Shown in pieces: positions 3,220-42,301 of a stretch of 42,301 nt of DNA (positions are counted from its first letter, which is position 1; every line of letters begins with the position of its first letter). The notes under the pieces were generated by a model, which ran no database searches, was not told where the DNA came from, and saw only the letters and a list, made by a program, of their open reading frames with translations. The stretch spans positions 1-42,301 of the IMG/VR virus record IMGVR_UViG_3300025940_000013; one strand, written 5' to 3'. Source of the DNA: a virus. Both the position numbers and the translations under genes were made by a program.

Positions 3220-5391
3220 ATGCTCAAGGGCAGAGAGATCGGCGCTACCTTCGCGCCTGACGAAATCGGCTGGATTGATTTTGAGGCCCGCGGAAAGCGG
3301 TCAATCAAAGATGGCACCTACGCCTACGCCACTAACGCCGACGCCATCATCCTGGCGTACGCGATCGGCGACGGGCCGGCGTCTAATATTATTAATTCTA
3401 GGCGTCCAGGCGACGCGCTCGACCTGGCCGACTTGCCGCTCGACTTCCTTAGGCACCACGCCAAGGTGGTGAACGGTACGGCGGTGTGGGCGGCCTGGAA
3501 TTGCTCGTTCGATCGCGCGATCTGGAATTACGCCACGGCGTGGTTCCCCGAGCTCGAGCCGCACATGATCATTGACGTGATGGCGCAGGCCGTCGCCTCG
3601 GGCTTACCGCCCGACCTCAAGATGGCGGCGATTACGACCGGCGCCGCCGAGAAGAAGGAGGCCGGCGATAGGCTGATCAAGTTGTTCTGCCTGCCGGATT
3701 CCACGGCCACACCGCAATCCCACCCCGAAGATTGGAAGATGTTCCTGGTTTATGCCGCCGCCGACATCGAGGCGATGCGCGGCGTGTTCAAGCGTACCCG
3801 GCAATTGAGCTATGCCGAGTGGCAGGAATGCTGGGCGATGGAACGGATCAATGCGCGCGGCGTGGGGGTCGACCTGTCGATGGTCGCGCACGCTAGCAGC
3901 CTGGCGACCGAGGACAAGAGCCGATCCGCGGCCGAAATCCAGCGCCTGACCGCGGGCCGGGTTAAGACCGTTGATGAAGTGGCAAAGATAACCGCCTGGC
4001 TGCTCGAGATATTACCACCCGGCGGCCGCGAGATACTCCTCAAACGCGAGGAAGAAACCGACGAAAATGGCGAAATTGTAAAACCGCCGAAATTCGCCCT
4101 GCGTCGGGCGCAGGTGCAACGCCTTCTGGCCTTCATCCAGACGCTCGATCGCAACAATCCCGACTACCTCAAGGCTGAGCGCGTCTTAACAATTCGGCTT
4201 TGGGGTGGCAGCAAGACGCCGGCGAAATTCGCCAAGATCGAGGCGCAGCACGTCGATGGGTTGCTCTACGGGCAATACGTTTTCAACGGCGCCGCTCAGA
4301 CTGGCCGCGCCTCCTCAAAGGGCGTCCAGATCCACAACCTGGCCAGGGACACCCTCCCGGACGAGCCTGGCGCCATAGATGCCCTGCTCGCCAAGTGCTC
4401 CTACGGCGAGCTGGTGCAGGCCGGCGGCAATGATGATCCGGTTTCCCGCAAGCTGTCACTGCTGATCCGGCCCGCCTTCGTGCCATCAGAGGGGAATGAT
4501 TTTGTCTGGTCGGATTGGTCCAATATCGAGGCGCGGGTGCTGCCCTGGCTCGCCGGCGACGAGGCGCGGTTGGACATATTTCGTGAGGTCGATCGCGACC
4601 CCCGCGTGCCGGATCTCTACACCCGCACCGCGGCGGAGATCTCCAACGTCTCCTACGGCGAGGTCACCAAGCCAATGCGCCAGCGCGGCAAGGTGGTCGA
4701 GCTCGCGCTCGGGTTTGGCGGTGGCGTCGGCGCCCTGCTGACGATGGCGGCCGGTTACGGCATGCACCTCGAGGAGGCCGAGGCCAAGGCCATCGTCGAA
4801 CGCTGGCGCAGGGCCAATGGCTGGGCGGTCCGGTTCTGGGGTCGCCACGACCAGAATGGCAGTTACGGTCTCTGGGGCGCTATCAACCGCGCCCTGCTGG
4901 CGCCCAACACAGTGCAGCGTTACGAACGGATCCACTACTGCTTCAAGCCACAGTACCTTGGCGGCTCATTGCTCTGCGTGCTGCCCTCGGGCCGGATCCT
5001 GACCTATCGGCGGATCAAGTACGAGCGCGTCGAGGAGCTCGACGACGACGACAAACCAACCGGGCAATTCTCCACCAAACTACGCTTCAGCCGCGGCTAC
5101 GCCCGCGTCGTGTTCTGGCACGGCATGGCCTGCGAAAACGTGGTCCAGGCCGTCGCGGCTGATGTGCTGCGAGGAACGCTAGTGCGGCTGGAAAACGAAT
5201 ACCCCGAAGGAAATATGAATGTCCGCTTGCACACGCACGATGAAGTGGTCTGCGAGACGGAATTATCCCTCGCGAAAGCCACGGAGATAAGCCTGCGCTA
5301 CCAGATGCGGCGCGGGTTCGATTGGTCCGAAGGCTTGCCGCTGATGTCGGAGGAGACTGTCAGTCCGTACTACACCAAGCACGAGGGGTAG
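3220..5391 (+). CDS. Family A DNA polymerase with 3'-5' exonuclease domain
   Basis: The 723-residue replicative DNA polymerase. It has a T7-like architecture without a 5'-3' exonuclease domain. The proofreading domain shows Exo I as WIDFEARG (D20, E22), Exo II around NCSFDRAIWN and Exo III as VYAAADIEAM. The polymerase domain shows a fingers/palm entry QTGRASSKGVQIHNL, motif A SDWSNIEARV (D432, E437), motif B RQRGKVVELALGFGG (R487, K491) and motif C LHTHDEVVCE (H673, D674, E675). In motif B the residue equivalent to Klenow Y766 appears to be Phe (F499) and the residue equivalent to F762 is Leu (L495), unusual substitutions at the nucleotide-selection face. The start follows GGAGAG. It lies in the rightward operon with nuclease and helicase genes, and likely works with the prim-pol/helicase. 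Confidence 0.95.
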   Translation: MLKGREIGATFAPDEIGWIDFEARGKRSIKDGTYAYATNADAIILAYAIGDGPASNIINSRRPGDALDLADLPLDFLRHHAKVVNGTAVWAAWNCSFDRAIWNYATAWFPELEPHMIIDVMAQAVASGLPPDLKMAAITTGAAEKKEAGDRLIKLFCLPDSTATPQSHPEDWKMFLVYAAADIEAMRGVFKRTRQLSYAEWQECWAMERINARGVGVDLSMVAHASSLATEDKSRSAAEIQRLTAGRVKTVDEVAKITAWLLEILPPGGREILLKREEETDENGEIVKPPKFALRRAQVQRLLAFIQTLDRNNPDYLKAERVLTIRLWGGSKTPAKFAKIEAQHVDGLLYGQYVFNGAAQTGRASSKGVQIHNLARDTLPDEPGAIDALLAKCSYGELVQAGGNDDPVSRKLSLLIRPAFVPSEGNDFVWSDWSNIEARVLPWLAGDEARLDIFREVDRDPRVPDLYTRTAAEISNVSYGEVTKPMRQRGKVVELALGFGGGVGALLTMAAGYGMHLEEAEAKAIVERWRRANGWAVRFWGRHDQNGSYGLWGAINRALLAPNTVQRYERIHYCFKPQYLGGSLLCVLPSGRILTYRRIKYERVEELDDDDKPTGQFSTKLRFSRGYARVVFWHGMACENVVQAVAADVLRGTLVRLENEYPEGNMNVRLHTHDEVVCETELSLAKATEISLRYQMRRGFDWSEGLPLMSEETVSPYYTKHEG

Positions 5392-19030: not shown

Positions 19031-20442
19031 CACGCTGCCTTCAGAATGCTGCCCATCACCCGCTCAGGGTAGATGTGCTTGACACCATGCCGTTCAGTAA
19101 CAGCGCGCTTGTCGATCTTCTCCACGTCCTGCGCCATCGGGCCAACTCGACGTTGACCATCGCCGTTCTTGTATTCCCACTCGTAGATCGGCAGCTTCTT
19201 GCGCTCGCCGTCGACGCTGGCCGCGAACACAGTCCCTATTCGATCGACATCCTTCTTGACGCGGCGGTCTGACATGATGGCGGCGCCGCCGAGCTTGCCG
19301 CCGAGACCGAGCAGCCCGCCCATGGTGCTATTCCAGCTCTGCATCTGCTGGCCGTAGATCCCCATCTGGTTCTGAAAATTTTGGTTGACGATGCCCGCGT
19401 AATCCGTGGTCGGGATCTGGGCGCCGGAGCCGCCGGCGTTAAAGTTGGGATCCTTGACCTGCGAGCCGCTCATCAATGCGGTGATCTCGTTGAGCGGCTG
19501 ATTACGCTGCGCGTACTGCTCGCCCATGGACTGGCTGCGCGCCGCGTTCTGCGCGTTGAAGCCGGCCTGGGCCTGCTGCAGCTGCTGCGCCAGGCCCGCG
19601 TTCTCAAAGGTGCCGAGCGCAGCGTTCTGCTGGAATTGCTGCCCGGCGGCCTGGTTGGCGAAGCTGCCGCGGCCCATCGCCTGGTCGTAGGTCTGCTGCT
19701 GCGCCTGGTTTTCGAACCCGGCCCTTTGCGCGGCCATGTCCATCATGCGCTGCTGCTCGGAGCCGGCCTGGCTGATGGCGCCAAACCTCGCGTCGTTGGA
19801 CTGGCGATTGTAATCATCCATGGCGCTCGCGTAGGCCTGGCTCCCGTACCTGATGCCCTGGTCCGCTAACCTTTGCTCAATGTTGCCGCGCTCGCGCGCG
19901 AGCTGCGGGTTCATTCGCTCCATCAATGAATCTTCGACGCGCTGCCGGTCCTGGCTGAAGTCTCCGGCGCCGTAGCTCTTGGTGATGTCGCCGGCGTCAC
20001 CGAACGAGGTCTGGATTTGGCCGCCAGGGTCAAACGAAGTCTTGGCCTTGCCAATGTTGGTGATGCTGCTGGCGTCGCCCGCCGCCGGCGCCGTGGCGGA
20101 CGGGTTGAACGGCGTACTGAGCAGACTGGCGATCTTGCCGGACTGCGCGTTGGCCATCCCGGCCATGTTCATCTGCGCGGCCTGGTTTTGGTCAAAGATC
20201 GCCTGCTGCTGCGGCGAGTAGCTCTGCGTCGATGTGAAAGTAGGTATCTGGTAGGTCTTGCCGGTCGACGGGTCGGTCCAGCCATGGGTGCCCGTCACGT
20301 CGTAGCGCAGGGAGCCCTGCGGCGTGTTTTGGTTGACGTTGCCCAGGAAGCTATTAGCCACAGCCGTTGAGACGTTGGTGCCGGTCTGCGCGGCCGCCGT
20401 CGCCTGCGGGTTGGGGGGCTGTGGTGCGTCGGGCTTACCCAT
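19030..20442 (-). CDS. Virion protein with C-terminal S74-type chaperone domain
   Basis: 470 residues. The N-terminus is Pro/Gln/Asn-rich (GKPDAPQPPNPQATAAAQTG). The middle (130-350) is a long Gln/Ala-rich helical region (DRQRVEDSLMERMNPQLARE, QQTYDQAMGRGSFANQAA) typical of internal virion proteins of podovirus-like phages. The last ~80 residues carry an S74 intramolecular chaperone: MSDRRVKKDVDRIGTVF (candidate Ser near 390), then YEWEYKNGD and RRVGPMAQDVEKIDKRAV. That combination is usual in proteins labelled tail fibre domain-containing, but this gene lies among ejection-type genes rather than fibres. Self-cleavage is expected from the family, not shown. Confidence 0.8.
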   Translation of the reverse strand: MGKPDAPQPPNPQATAAAQTGTNVSTAVANSFLGNVNQNTPQGSLRYDVTGTHGWTDPSTGKTYQIPTFTSTQSYSPQQQAIFDQNQAAQMNMAGMANAQSGKIASLLSTPFNPSATAPAAGDASSITNIGKAKTSFDPGGQIQTSFGDAGDITKSYGAGDFSQDRQRVEDSLMERMNPQLARERGNIEQRLADQGIRYGSQAYASAMDDYNRQSNDARFGAISQAGSEQQRMMDMAAQRAGFENQAQQQTYDQAMGRGSFANQAAGQQFQQNAALGTFENAGLAQQLQQAQAGFNAQNAARSQSMGEQYAQRNQPLNEITALMSGSQVKDPNFNAGGSGAQIPTTDYAGIVNQNFQNQMGIYGQQMQSWNSTMGGLLGLGGKLGGAAIMSDRRVKKDVDRIGTVFAASVDGERKKLPIYEWEYKNGDGQRRVGPMAQDVEKIDKRAVTERHGVKHIYPERVMGSILKAA

Positions 20443-20445
20443 GGC

Positions 20446-20769
20446 TTACATCCTTTGCGGCGGCATACCCTGCGGCGGCATCTGCGGCGGCATCGCTTGT
20501 CCCCCGGGTGCCTGTGGCACCTGGCCCATTGGCGGCGGCTGCGGCGGCATGCCGCCACCCATTGGCGGTGCGCCACCGCCCATTGGCGGCGCGGCGCCGC
20601 CCATCGGCGGGCCGCCCGGAGGCGGTCCCTGCGGCTGTGGCGGCGGCATTTGCGGCATCTGTGGCAGCTGCGGCATCTGCGGCTGGGGTGGTGGCTGCGC
20701 GATGTTCATCAGCGCCATCGCGATCGCGTCGCGCTGGCCACCATTGGCGGCGTTGTTCGGGTACGGCAT
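20446..20769 (-). CDS. Small Pro/Gly/Met-rich protein
   Basis: 107 residues made mostly of Pro, Gly, Gln and Met (PQPQMPQLPQMPQMPPP; repeated PPMGGAAPPMGG blocks). Only the first 25 residues look structured (NAANGGQRDAIAMALMNIAQ). Tandem DNA triplet repeats underlie it. It has a start overlapping the upstream stop. Similar low-complexity proteins sit in internal virion clusters; role unknown. Confidence 0.65.
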   Translation of the reverse strand: MPYPNNAANGGQRDAIAMALMNIAQPPPQPQMPQLPQMPQMPPPQPQGPPPGGPPMGGAAPPMGGGAPPMGGGMPPQPPPMGQVPQAPGGQAMPPQMPPQGMPPQRM

Positions 20770-30305: not shown

Positions 30306-30997
30306 GACAGGGTCCAATTCTGGGATGCCGTGGTGATCCCCATGGAGGTGACGTTGACCGGCACCTGGCCGGGGGTGGTGCGTTTCAGCGCGTAGCAGGT
30401 CAGCGACGTCGGTGAGACGTAGGTGGTCATGTAATTTTGACCCCCGACGTTCATGACGGCGTCGCGCTTGAAGTTGGTGCCGGTCGCGGTCACCGTGGCG
30501 TAGCCGGAGCCGGAGACGTTGCCGGCGCCGGCGCTGGTGGCGGTGGTCAGCGTCGGTGTCAGCACTGTCGCCGGCGTCAGGCTCGAGGCATGGGTCGCGT
30601 TCGGTCCGGCCGCCCTGGTGGCCGCCGTTTCGACCGGGCCGGCGCCGACCGTGTAGAGCGAGTTATGCGCGGTGCCGCCGGTGTAGGGTGGCGTGTAGGC
30701 CAGCGTCACCAGCGTCTCGGTGCCTTTGCCCTCGTGGTCGACGCTCATGCCGGCGCCTGGCGCGGGCGGCGTCGAGGTCGCGGCGGTCTTGGCCGCAAAC
30801 ACGAATTTGTTCGGGCTCGGCTCGTTGTAGGAGGCGTCGACGACGGGCGTCAGCAGCCGTGAATTAGGCACCGGGGCCGGGATGCCGTCGTCGACCGCGG
30901 GCTGGCTCGGATCTAGCGGCGGTGTGTTGCCGACCGTCGACAGGTTCGTCGGCGGCGTTGGATTGGGCGGGGTAACCGTTAACGCGTTCTGGGCCAT
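30302..30997 (-). CDS. IPT/TIG-like virion protein
   Basis: 231 residues with AAGGAG before the ATG. A Pro/Thr/Asn-rich first third (LTVTPPNPTPPTNLSTVGN), a beta-rich middle (KGTETLVTLAYTPPYTGGTA), and a C-terminal IPT/TIG-like domain (YATVTATGTNFKRDAVMNVG; YVSPTSLTCYALKRTTPGQ; VPVNVTSMGITTASQNW). It probably decorates the virion. It is coupled to the next gene. Confidence 0.75.
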   Translation of the reverse strand: MAQNALTVTPPNPTPPTNLSTVGNTPPLDPSQPAVDDGIPAPVPNSRLLTPVVDASYNEPSPNKFVFAAKTAATSTPPAPGAGMSVDHEGKGTETLVTLAYTPPYTGGTAHNSLYTVGAGPVETAATRAAGPNATHASSLTPATVLTPTLTTATSAGAGNVSGSGYATVTATGTNFKRDAVMNVGGQNYMTTYVSPTSLTCYALKRTTPGQVPVNVTSMGITTASQNWTLS

Positions 30998-36750: not shown

Positions 36751-37110
36751 CTATGCCCCGTACTCCCATTGATGCTTGCAGCCTGGACAGGTCAGCAGCA
36801 GGCGACGACCCACTCTGTCGACGCGACGCGCGGAAATCTCACCGCAGGCCGGGCACGGCCGCGGCGCCGCCGCAGGCAGCTCCATGTTATTGGTGGTCCA
36901 GGTCGGACCGCTCGGTGTTTGCGTTGGGTTTAGCCCTGTCTCCAGCTTCGCCATTGGCTCGCCGAGCGGCTCGTCAAGCAGGTTAGCGGCCTCAACCATC
37001 AGGTTAGCAGCGTCGTCGCTGACCAGCGCCACCCAGCTCTCGCGCGGATCCACCGCCAGGATAGCGGCGGCGCAGGTGCGGAGACGGTAGACCAGATCCT
37101 GCTGGTTCAT
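36751..37110 (-). CDS. Small protein with C-terminal zinc ribbon
   Basis: 119 residues, ATGA-coupled to the terminase stop. Helical N-terminal part (DLVYRLRTCAAAILAVDPRE; NLMVEAANLLDEP), linker, then a clear zinc ribbon CPACGEISARRVDRVGRRLL and TCPGCKHQWEYG. It lies between TerL and portal, so a packaging accessory is possible. The ribbon is seen; the role is unknown. Confidence 0.75.
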   Translation of the reverse strand: MNQQDLVYRLRTCAAAILAVDPRESWVALVSDDAANLMVEAANLLDEPLGEPMAKLETGLNPTQTPSGPTWTTNNMELPAAAPRPCPACGEISARRVDRVGRRLLLTCPGCKHQWEYGA

Positions 37111-38474
37111 ATGATCACCCCACGTTTACGCGGCGCGTCCTGGGGTGGCGGAATGATCCAGCCGCGTTGTATCGGCACGACTACATCGCGCCGCGGCGCC
37201 TGGCGCCAGGCCTGCGCGAGGTAGCGAAAGGCGTCGGCGAAGTGCGAGGTCCAATCATGTAAGGGGGTTAGCCTGAAGGCCTTGAGCTCGTCATCCCACT
37301 CGCGGCGGTACTGCTCGAGCGCGGCCAGCGCCGGCTCGCAGCGCGGGTGGAAGATGCACAGCGGCAGCGTCCGCCTGGCGGCGTTGATGCCGTCCTGCAT
37401 CGTCGACCAGGTCACCAGCATCGGCGATAGCCCGAGCTGAGACATGGTCTCGACGCGGGTTTTCCCGCTGCCCCATTCCTTGACCTTGGCATCGTGCGGC
37501 ACCCAGTCAGTGCCATCGATCCAGCCATGCTCGGCGCGTTTACGCTCGATCACCTCGACGAAGTGCTCGAGGCCCTGGCCAGATGCTGAGTAGCAATCAA
37601 GTATGACGACCTGGCCGCCCTGCATCTGCCACCAAAAGATCGCGGTGTCATCGGTGACGCCAATATCCCAGGCCCGGTGCACAGGTTGACCCTCGATCGC
37701 CTCGCACTCAATGACACGATCTTCCTTGCGCACCGCGGCCATTTCAAAGGCGAACATGGCCCCCAATATCGCTGCGTTGAATGAGCACATCAGCTCCTGA
37801 TCGAACATCGCCTGGCCGGCGTCCTCGCCGTACAAGGTCCTGTACTCAGTGAGCGCCTCGTTGAGTTCATACGAAGATAACGCCGCGGTGTCGTGCGCGG
37901 TCAGCAGCTCGGCGAACCACTCCGGCGAGCGTTGTGCATGCTTGAACATATCGAACGCGTGATTGCGGCCACGCGGCGTTGAGATGAAGCACGCCCAGCC
38001 GCCGTTCTCCTGCAACATCGGCCGGTGATAGGCCCACGCACTCGGATTGCTTAGCGCCCATTCACTGTAGACGATGCCGGCCGGCGAGGCGCCCATGGTG
38101 GCGTCGTAACGATCGCTGCCGATGCAGGCCCAGGTGCTGCCGTTGCGGAAGCGAATAAACATGGTGCTGTCGTTGGTGTTGTCACGAAACTCATGCGGGA
38201 ACGCCTCATCGATGCGGCGCCGACCCGTGTGCGGATTGACTGCCGTCCATATCGAACGACGTGCTTGTTCGAACTCAGGCAAGCAATGCCAGTAATTACC
38301 AACGCGCCGGACCGCACACACCGCGGCATGATGTAACGCAACCTCGTCTTTGCCCGCACGTCTGTGCCAGATCGCGAGCGCCCGCGTGCCACCCTCGTGC
38401 AGGTAGCGCCACAGCTTCATCTGATGCGGCCGCGGCGTCCATTGGTTGTGCGGGATGACGATGTCAGTGCTCAT
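37107..38474 (-). CDS. terL: Terminase large subunit
   Basis: 455 residues, the DNA packaging motor. Walker A is IWHRRAGKDEVAL (about 37-44); Walker B is GIVYSEWALS (about 133-141, the Glu in SEW); the coupling motif is ISTPRGRN near 165. The nuclease domain has RAWDIGVTDDTAIF (D270), VPHDAKVKEWG (D328) and DWTSHFADAFRYLAQ (D414). This is the standard two-domain TerL. The start overlaps a micro membrane ORF by 11 bases. The downstream neighbours are the zinc-ribbon protein and the portal. No separate HNH gene is seen beside it. Confidence 0.95.
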   Translation of the reverse strand: MSTDIVIPHNQWTPRPHQMKLWRYLHEGGTRALAIWHRRAGKDEVALHHAAVCAVRRVGNYWHCLPEFEQARRSIWTAVNPHTGRRRIDEAFPHEFRDNTNDSTMFIRFRNGSTWACIGSDRYDATMGASPAGIVYSEWALSNPSAWAYHRPMLQENGGWACFISTPRGRNHAFDMFKHAQRSPEWFAELLTAHDTAALSSYELNEALTEYRTLYGEDAGQAMFDQELMCSFNAAILGAMFAFEMAAVRKEDRVIECEAIEGQPVHRAWDIGVTDDTAIFWWQMQGGQVVILDCYSASGQGLEHFVEVIERKRAEHGWIDGTDWVPHDAKVKEWGSGKTRVETMSQLGLSPMLVTWSTMQDGINAARRTLPLCIFHPRCEPALAALEQYRREWDDELKAFRLTPLHDWTSHFADAFRYLAQAWRQAPRRDVVVPIQRGWIIPPPQDAPRKRGVII

Positions 38475-40662: not shown

Positions 40663-40886
40663 TGACCCGCGTAGCCCTGCTGATGGCCATCCTGATCAAC
40701 GGCGCCGCCGGCGCCGAGCCCAGGATCCCGACCGAGGAGGAGAAGGCCGCCGCCCTCAAGCTGGCCTACATCCTCAACGGCAATTCCATGGTGCGGTGGG
40801 GGAGCATCGACCTGTCCAAGCCGATCGTCCGCCCGTGCAGCGACTGCACGCCGGCGCCGGCCAACCCGAGGCTGATCCTGAAATGA
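40662..40886 (+). CDS. Secreted or periplasmic small protein
   Basis: 74 residues beginning with a probable signal peptide (TRVALLMAILINGAAGAEP; cleavage likely after AGA). The mature part is helical (TEEEKAAALKLAYILNGNSM) and ends with PCSDCTPAPANP, a CxxC that could form a disulphide in the periplasm. The start shares a base with the previous stop and its end overlaps the next start. An exported early protein is unusual and may act at the cell envelope, such as superinfection exclusion; this is a guess. Confidence 0.7.
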   Translation: MTRVALLMAILINGAAGAEPRIPTEEEKAAALKLAYILNGNSMVRWGSIDLSKPIVRPCSDCTPAPANPRLILK

Positions 40887-41083
40887 GCTGGAAACCTGAA
40901 GTCGTTGCCGACAACTCCGGCAAATGGATCGGCAACGGCCTGACCTTCCACACCCGTGTCGAGGCCGACGCCTACGTCCGCGACTTAACCGTACGCTGGA
41001 CCAGTGTCCGCGAGTATCGCGTGGTCGAGAGCGACGACCCCGTCAGCCACATCTGGCGACACGGTAAAGCGACCCCAATCTGA
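40883..41083 (+). CDS. Unknown small protein
   Basis: 66 residues, ATGA overlap with the previous gene. Compact strand-helix pattern (SWKPEVVADNSGKWIGNGLT, FHTRVEADAYVRDLTVRWTS, REYRVVESDDPVSHIWRHG) of a kind often found in small phage proteins of unknown role. Last gene before the strong terminator at 41091. Confidence 0.75.
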   Translation: MSWKPEVVADNSGKWIGNGLTFHTRVEADAYVRDLTVRWTSVREYRVVESDDPVSHIWRHGKATPI

Positions 41084-41090
41084 CACCAAA

Positions 41091-41117
41091 AACCCCGCCT
41101 CTCAGGCGGGGTTTTTT
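41091..41117. terminator. Strong bidirectional terminator
   Basis: Perfect 9-bp stem ACCCCGCCT/AGGCGGGGT around CTC with six T's on the + side and five A's before it, so it works for both strands. It ends the rightward set and would also stop leftward transcription from the iteron region or the helicase gene. Confidence 0.88.
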
Positions 41118-41370
41118 CTTGGATTGGTCCTCAGGTCCTCAGAAGTCCTCGAATTCCCAGAGAGACATATAAACTACACAGGAACTTATTATCTATACAT
41201 ACATGTTATTATCATTTTTTAAGGACCAATAAGGACCAACCACCATAAATTATTGATAAACCTAAATTTTTTGCTGGTCCTCAGAGGGTGTCCTCAGCTG
41301 GTCCTGGTCCTCAGCTCTTGTCTAACGGCGTAAAATCCAGGATCACCGCCGTCATTCCGTGGTCCTCAGC
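41118..41370. other. AT-rich region with GGTCC iterons: candidate replication origin
   Basis: Ten or so copies of a GGTCC(TCAG) unit: GGTCCTCAG at 41126, 41134, 41276, 41306 and 41361; partial units at 41145, 41290 and 41300; and two head-to-tail AAGGACCAAY units at 41221-41240 on the opposite strand. Between the left and right groups (about 41161-41273) the sequence is strongly AT-rich (for example TTATTATC, TTATTATCATTTTTT) in a GC-rich genome, like a DNA unwinding element. The last copies run into the helicase 3' end. Similar layout occurs at phage and plasmid origins. Function is inferred, no initiator known. Confidence 0.6.
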
Positions 41371-42301
41371 TGCCTTGGCGATGATTTTTCGGCTATGTTC
41401 CACCGAGCTCTGCGCGACCCCGGTTTCGGTGATATGTTTGGTGTTAAAACCACGCCAGGACAGGATCCAATGTTTGCCCTGGCTGAGTGGCAACCTGAAC
41501 TCACCATCGACCTTCTTTGCAGCGTTCTTGATCATGCGTTTTACCGACGCAATTTGACCCTCGCCGGCGTTGCCACCGAGCTCACCGAGCACCGCCGCCA
41601 GCACCATTTCGCCGGTGAACAACCCGCGCGGCCCGATCACTTTCTGGATGGCGCTGAACGCAATGTCGACGTCGCTGCGCGCCAGCTCCTGCATGGTGGC
41701 CTTGGTCTCGGTCTCGAGCGGCGCATATGCGTCGAAATGCGTGAGATCGCGCGCCTCGAGCCAGGCGCCGAGGGCGGCGATGTTGCCAGGCTCCCTGGTC
41801 CAGGCGTCGACCTGCTCCGCCTGTTGGGGTGATAACCGGCCGCCATTGGACAGGGCTGTCGCCCTTCGATCGTCCGCCGGCAATTGCAAGGCGTCACGGT
41901 TGTTGGAAAAGATCAAATAGCTGGCGAAGGCCCACGCGACGAAGGCGGGCCGGCCCTTCGGCGTGAACATCCGCTCCACCGGCGCCGGGTCGACCAGCTC
42001 CTTGATCCGCTCGTAGACCGCGCGCCGATCCGCCCACTTGCCGCTCTCCGGCGTGTCCTTGGCCTCGTTGACCACGACCAGGGTCGAATACGCCGCCCAG
42101 TCCGTGTAGACGCCCTGGCTGGAACGCCCCGTGAACACGTCAAAGTCGATCGTGCGCACATACTGCGGTCCCATCAGCCGGCCCAGGATCTTGCGCAGCA
42201 TGCCGCGGCCGGCGCCATACACGGGCCCCTCGTCCGTCGCCGCCACCATGATCACCGCCACGCCCGGGATCCCCGGGTTGCGGTACTTGTGCGCCAGCCA
42301 G
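41311..42301 (-). CDS. Primase-helicase C-terminal part (D5-like ATPase), cut by right edge
   Basis: 329 residues to the stop at 41311, open to the right edge (WLAHKYRNPG...). It matches the D5/DUF5906 AAA+ helicase half of phage primase-helicases: WLAHKYRNP then VAVIMVAATDEG, the P-loop-like YGAGRGMLRKILGRL (Arg where the Walker A Lys usually sits), YSTLVVVNEAKDTPES (Walker B-like Asn-Glu), then an ALDQL-type DNA-binding sensor region (AFASYLIFSNNRDALQLPAD) and a winged-helix-like C-terminus. The prim-pol start at the left edge (1-426) is the likely other end of the same gene. It uses the leftward strand and ends inside the iteron region. Confidence 0.85.
   Translation of the reverse strand, partial: WLAHKYRNPGIPGVAVIMVAATDEGPVYGAGRGMLRKILGRLMGPQYVRTIDFDVFTGRSSQGVYTDWAAYSTLVVVNEAKDTPESGKWADRRAVYERIKELVDPAPVERMFTPKGRPAFVAWAFASYLIFSNNRDALQLPADDRRATALSNGGRLSPQQAEQVDAWTREPGNIAALGAWLEARDLTHFDAYAPLETETKATMQELARSDVDIAFSAIQKVIGPRGLFTGEMVLAAVLGELGGNAGEGQIASVKRMIKNAAKKVDGEFRLPLSQGKHWILSWRGFNTKHITETGVAQSSVEHSRKIIAKAAEDHGMTAVILDFTPLDKS

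Follow-up and report, generated by a model that had tools for sequence, protein, structure and literature searches.

The closest described systems to the locus examined here combine a replicative helicase with an origin near its gene. In SCCmec, experiments showed that the C-terminal domain of Cch2 binds direct repeats that lie just past the end of the gene encoding it (PMC7581432), and the rep-ori module of phage-inducible chromosomal islands (PICIs) has been found to replicate a plasmid (PMC6092414). The plasmid pRN1 requires 100 bp downstream of its primase-polymerase (prim-pol)/helicase gene, an origin that its authors call a stem-loop without iteron structure, with the same proposed for phage BIP-1 (PMC4234260); for NrS-1, two copies of an 8-nucleotide (nt) priming site have been suggested (PMC7102993). 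The origins of phages with a prim-pol/helicase are undefined in the open-licence literature searched, and the pattern that we describe may be described in other literature. Here we analyze positions 41118 to 41370 of the IMG/VR virus record IMGVR_UViG_3300025940_000013, a stretch of 42,301 bases referred to in its entirety as the window, where repeats surround AT-rich DNA at the 3' end of a prim-pol/helicase gene. Drawing on the computed repeats, AT core, and position, an inverted paired geometry, a layout conserved with changing letters, and the co-variation of repeat and winged helix, we consider this region very probably to be the replication origin of the phage, with its initiator encoded next door. 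The features of the candidate origin, in the order in which they are met from the helicase gene, are as follows.

41455..41673, minus strand: predicted winged helix (fragment residues 210-282, AlphaFold2 model), the proposed iteron reader
41361..41369, plus strand: iteron GGTCCTCAG (CTGAGGACC in gene sense), exact match, within the 3' end of the helicase gene
41306..41314, plus strand: iteron GGTCCTCAG, exact match, covering the helicase gene stop codon (41311-41313)
41300..41304, plus strand: partial unit GGTCC
41289..41297, plus strand: degenerate iteron TGTCCTCAG, 1 mismatch
41276..41284, plus strand: iteron GGTCCTCAG, exact match
41163..41272: the 110 bases of highest AT content in the window (74.5% AT)
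41220..41239, minus strand: inverted iteron pair TAAGGACCAA TAAGGACCAA, spacing 10 bp, bordering the AT core on the gene side
41143..41219: AT core separating the two pairs of opposite orientation, ~69% AT versus 39% AT for the locus; presumed unwinding element
41144..41151, plus strand: degenerate unit AGTCCTCG
41126..41142, plus strand: direct pair of iterons GGTCCTCAGGTCCTCAG on the distal side, 8 bp apart
41088..41116: hairpin resembling a bidirectional terminator, with a perfect 13-bp stem, lying between convergent genes

The original prediction had described about ten GGTCC/GGACC units, several of them exact copies of GGTCCTCAG, around a 110-base AT-rich block that lies beside a bidirectional terminator and overlaps the end of the helicase gene, and each of these elements is present. 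Eight GGTCC/GGACC units are exact (41126, 41134, 41223, 41233, 41276, 41300, 41306, and 41361, the last ending at 41365), and the degenerate units at 41289 and 41144 bring the number to ten; GGTCCTCAG occurs in five exact copies (41126, 41134, 41276, 41306, and 41361), all on the plus strand, with no further exact copy in the 42.3 kb. The density of GGTCC/GGACC makes 41118-41370 the densest 253-base stretch of the window, and 1,000 dinucleotide shuffles of the region gave a mean of 0.66 units and a maximum of 4. The commonest 8-mer of the region has 6 copies compared to no more than 3 in 1,000 shuffles, a count equaled at only one other stretch (about 20400-20690), which consists of GGC-rich, low-complexity coding repeats. 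The AT-rich block is the top 110-mer of the window, the next best elsewhere reaching 63.6% AT. Because the inverted pair at 41220-41239 lies inside this block, the layout in gene direction is a cluster of direct units that starts within the gene end and extends to 41276 (41276-41369 overall), AT-rich DNA, the inverted pair, a 77-base AT core, and the direct pair at 41142-41126, so that the two pairs flank the core and the cluster is additional to them.

We gathered relatives of the helicase from IMG/VR and deposited phages and searched 73 loci for GGTCCTCAG, which was found in none of them; conservation was therefore tested on the layout. Statistics were calculated on 43 loci after removal of near-duplicates, counting the best 9-mer family from -120 to +480 of the stop codon and likewise in 60 dinucleotide shuffles and in control windows. 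Downstream of the prim-pol/helicase gene, the 9-mer family exceeded all 60 shuffles in 27 of 43 loci, and in 20 of the 43 it was also above every other 600-base window tested in the same locus. The AT-richest 80-mer of the locus fell within -80 to +600 of the helicase stop in 31 of 43 loci, where 4.4 were expected. The iteron is different in nearly every lineage of relatives: CCGTAACA (10 copies) in L010, CGTAGGTACG (11) in L015, TGGTGACAG (11) in L017, TTGTGTCG (15) in L021, CATGTATCC (12) in L022, GTGGCCCA (9) in L039, AACTAGGATA (7) in Achromobacter phage AXY1, AGGTCCGAA (14) in Burkholderia phage AH2, ATTCGGACC (10) in BcepNazgul, TTTGGATAC (10) in Vibrio phage 1.017.O, and GTGTTGGG (10) in Pseudomonas phage Presto. 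The original prediction had offered lack of repeat conservation in relatives as grounds for abandoning an origin, and taken literally the repeat letters are indeed not kept; that condition is badly posed, however, because position and geometry are conserved while each lineage has its own repeat. The same gene, the same side, and the same layout in dozens of distant relatives lend the origin reading strong comparative support. Two of the relatives, RDJL3 and Pam3 (L052 and L054), carry a prim-pol/helicase homolog labelled "integrase," probably a misannotation.

The orientation of the repeats follows a common plan. For each of 27 mapped nonredundant loci, the gap between iterons was picked by AT content alone and the directions of the bordering iterons were then compared; these were inverted in 26 of the 27 (binomial p=2e-7), compared with 83 of 186 control windows with at least 5 repeats, and the p-value is an approximation because the loci are related and the repeat count of some mapped loci (L005, L019, and L040) is not above shuffles. 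Bordering iterons lie a median of 97 bp apart across the AT core, while direct neighbors are mostly 7 to 10 bp apart. In phages Chi and Seifer, repeats of AGGTTACAA take the same inverted layout 430 to 700 bases after the stop codon, past a small helix-turn-helix (HTH) gene, and in BPP-1 two copies of GTTTGCCTC, an AT core, and the inverted pair follow one another 464 to 571 bases after the primase stop. We therefore list candidate origins in these three phages.

Chi (L049), about 4533-4820: AGGTTACAA repeats in inverted layout with an AT-rich stretch
Seifer (L056), about 4058-4345: AGGTTACAA repeats in inverted layout with an AT-rich stretch, near the cos end
BPP-1 (L070), 2608-2709, beyond bbp28: perfect 21-bp inverted repeat in which each arm, flanking an AT core, consists of two 9-bp units in tandem

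We do not equate the BPP-1 inverted pair with the stem-loop drawn in PMC4234260, which seems to lie nearer the stop codon. The first motif pass in L001, L004, and L018 returned GC-rich codon repeats, which were rejected; a second, hand-seeded look at L001 found a GCGTAC family with the same geometry.

The protein most likely to read these repeats is encoded beside them. When the fragment in the window was modeled with AlphaFold2 (mean pLDDT [predicted local distance difference test] 83), the helicase core was followed at residues 210-282 by elements in the order H-E-H-H-E-E, with a local pLDDT mostly between 76 and 91, an order that corresponds to a predicted winged helix. Among the relatives this part diverges much more than the helicase core (mean pairwise identity of 0.21 versus 0.43), and across 18 loci its identity is correlated with the similarity of the iterons (Mantel rho 0.31, p=0.0006; p=0.0004 after controlling for core identity), while the identity of the core fell below significance (Mantel p=0.08); the motif refinement behind this co-variation test used hand-chosen seeds and an orientation convention. 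Within the window's own clade the iterons drift visibly, being GTCGTGGGCAG (L030), GTCGAGGGCAG (L031), GTCGGGAGCAG (L029), GTCGGTGGCAG (L060), and CTGAGGACCAG (the window), and L033, whose winged helix is just 19 to 26% identical, has a different iteron sequence. The original prediction had left the initiator among the prim-pol/helicase, the HTH protein, and an unknown factor; because repeat similarity tracks the winged helix of the prim-pol/helicase and not its core, the choice narrows to the first of these.

By analogy with the Cch2 and PICI rep-ori precedents, we infer how such an origin could work. The terminal winged helix of the prim-pol/helicase would read the GGTCCTCAG iterons that adjoin the 3' end of its gene, with protomers binding in particular at the two pairs of opposing orientation on either side of the AT core (41126-41142 and 41220-41239). 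A pair of helicase rings could then assemble in opposite orientations, melt the core, and load themselves. The fused prim-pol domain would lay the first primers, which the family A DNA polymerase of the phage (encoded at 3220-5391) could extend.

Among other explanations, the likeliest is that the region is an origin whose initiator is another protein, either a phage HTH protein or host DnaA, with the prim-pol/helicase merely being loaded there. In Chi-like phages an HTH gene does separate the helicase gene from the repeats, and in several relatives the prim-pol gene is immediately preceded by a small gene, sometimes annotated as Cro, but most relatives lack an HTH gene beside the repeats, the fold family of the helicase includes self-loading initiators, and the iterons follow the winged helix as described above, so we regard this alternative as improbable. 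Still less probable, in our view, is that the repeats form an operator or a termination or other regulatory array for the convergent genes. Their position between convergent genes, beside the terminator-like hairpin, and one weak promoter-like match in the AT block would suit such an array; however, the region lies downstream of both genes, where an operator would have little role, and the layout persists in relatives with a convergent following gene as well as in those with a codirectional one. Operators are also not designed around a 100-bp AT core flanked by inverted pairs, and no Rfam family reached its gathering score on 40801-42301. A packaging (cos/pac) or recombination site that lies beside the helicase gene by chance is the least credible reading, since the repeats of Nazgul and Seifer are a few hundred bases from an annotated cos end but the annotated cos sequences fall outside the repeat arrays, co-variation with a helicase winged helix would be unexpected for a terminase site, and the window's terminase gene (37107-38474) lies beyond the small plus-strand genes as seen from the repeats.

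Several observations weigh against identifying 41118-41370 as an origin read by the prim-pol/helicase. The 9-mer family count of the window (7) is tied by one other window in the 5-kb flank, and about one-third of the related loci are without clear repeats within 600 bp (including L007, L008, L035, L043, L046, L047, and L052-L054), which suggests either that the layout rule is not universal or that the origins of repeat-poor loci are elsewhere. The helicase gene of BPP-1 and of the Chi-like phages is separated from the repeats by a small gene. The contig lacks the central part of the window's prim-pol/helicase gene, whose product is known from two pieces rather than at full length. GC skew, a check that the original prediction had recommended, has its minimum at 970 and its maximum at 30993, values that are uninformative either way, since gene orientation and the missing stretch between the contig ends both confound the skew.

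The candidate origin would work like the SaPI/PICI rep-ori, a module whose layout has been reported as unique to those islands, which the phages examined here contradict. In both, the origin is immediately 3' of an initiator helicase gene (the window's repeats are at the stop codon, and those of relatives are on the same side), and the element-specific iterons that are matched to the Rep C-terminal domain in the islands have an apparent counterpart here in the statistical association noted above. The helicase folds are also related: a Foldseek search with the window's fragment matched the C-terminal region of the NrS-1 polymerase (8.5e-10), the SaPI5 primase-helicase (7ola, 2.4e-5), and PriRep1 with double-stranded DNA (7pds, 3.3e-5), with D5/E5 among the fold neighbors. 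NrS-1 also ranks first among solved structures when the helicase part is compared by sequence profile (9e-15). The phages here differ in being full-size, with a polymerase of their own and a protein that joins an archaeo-eukaryotic prim-pol to a DUF5906/NrS-1-like helicase. PICIs are satellites with no virion genes of their own, and the window is not a PICI because it encodes terminase, portal, and other virion proteins together with the family A DNA polymerase. SCCmec Cch2 resembles it in having a C-terminal domain that binds direct repeats downstream of its own gene, and differs in its three 5-nt iterons, its separate polymerase and primase proteins, and its nonphage context. The alpha protein of phage P4, according to PMC4234260, likewise joins a primase, a helicase, and an origin-repeat-binding winged helix, but its primase is of the Toprim type; the comparison covers the protein.

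pRN1 shares with the window a prim-pol/helicase/winged-helix protein and an origin downstream of its gene, bearing in mind that the window's gene is seen in two pieces. The pRN plasmids differ in their archaeal hosts and in having a single pair per side, and the large, stable stem-loop of about 100 nt that characterizes pRN1 has no equivalent in 41118-41370, where a special hairpin was rejected (DNA fold z-score of -0.84, with 39 of 200 shuffles equally stable). The plasmid "stem-loop" loci lie at 5084-5183 (L071), 60-160 (L072), and 4684-4787 (L073). The 21-nt arms of pRN1 (5084-5104 and 5163-5183, 58 nt apart) each contain TGTCCA twice, 9 bp apart, and the same 9-bp spacing occurs in pRN2 (GGAC twice) and pHEN7 (TGTCAC twice), so that in these three cases, judged by eye, the stem arms are two tandem units inverted across an AT core, as in the window. 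The sections of PMC4234260 that were consulted describe no compensatory mutants for the pRN1 stem-loop, so that its arms may act either as a stem-loop or as inverted binding sites.

These likenesses raise the broader idea, for and against which we find the case evenly balanced, of a single origin class in which short iterons, in direct pairs about 9 bp apart, are inverted across a 60- to 110-bp AT core just beyond the 3' end of a gene for a prim-pol or primase helicase. It would be common to many tailed phages (Chi-like phages, BcepNazgul, BPP-1, and the window), PICIs, and crenarchaeal pRN plasmids, its iterons would change rapidly in step with the helicase's winged helix, and what was called a stem-loop in pRN1 would be inverted pairs of binding sites that set two rings head to head. 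Phages with a prim-pol/helicase are common: matches to a single such helicase came from 550 deposited phage genomes. The rule of inverted iteron pairs around an AT core 3' of the gene would give a testable origin in dozens of phages, Chi and BPP-1 among them; it would overturn the claim that the PICI origin layout is unique and offer a different reading of the proven pRN1 origin. The loci could also provide a matched series of protein-DNA specificities for learning how a winged helix reads its iteron, and differing iterons would prevent initiators from being shared among related phages and satellites.

The prim-pol/helicase gene itself is split between the two ends of the record, which has no end repeats.

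41311..42301, minus strand: C-terminal 329 residues of the prim-pol/helicase (DUF5906 helicase; PF19263 at 3.1e-07, above cut-off), running off the contig end
1..426, minus strand: N-terminal part of the prim-pol/helicase, matching phrog_1156 at the opposite contig end

Against phrog_1156 (DNA primase, 855 profile positions), the left-end piece covers 18-146 and the right-end piece 568-752, leaving about 390 codons (about 1.2 kb) absent between them. Because both contig ends match this family as parts of one gene, the record is a circular or permuted genome whose contig was broken within the prim-pol/helicase gene. The PF19263 match and the NrS-1 profile match place a DUF5906/D5-like helicase core in the right-end piece. 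On the other side of the repeats, a small gene at 40796-41083 is convergent with the prim-pol/helicase gene, so that the region lies between the two. A phage nucleotide search returned short matches to other genes only, and a scan of genome contigs found no close relatives. Elsewhere in the window, amid structural genes, a long protein encoded on the minus strand at 23087-24766 matches the PHROG "amidase" (lysis) at 1.7e-119.
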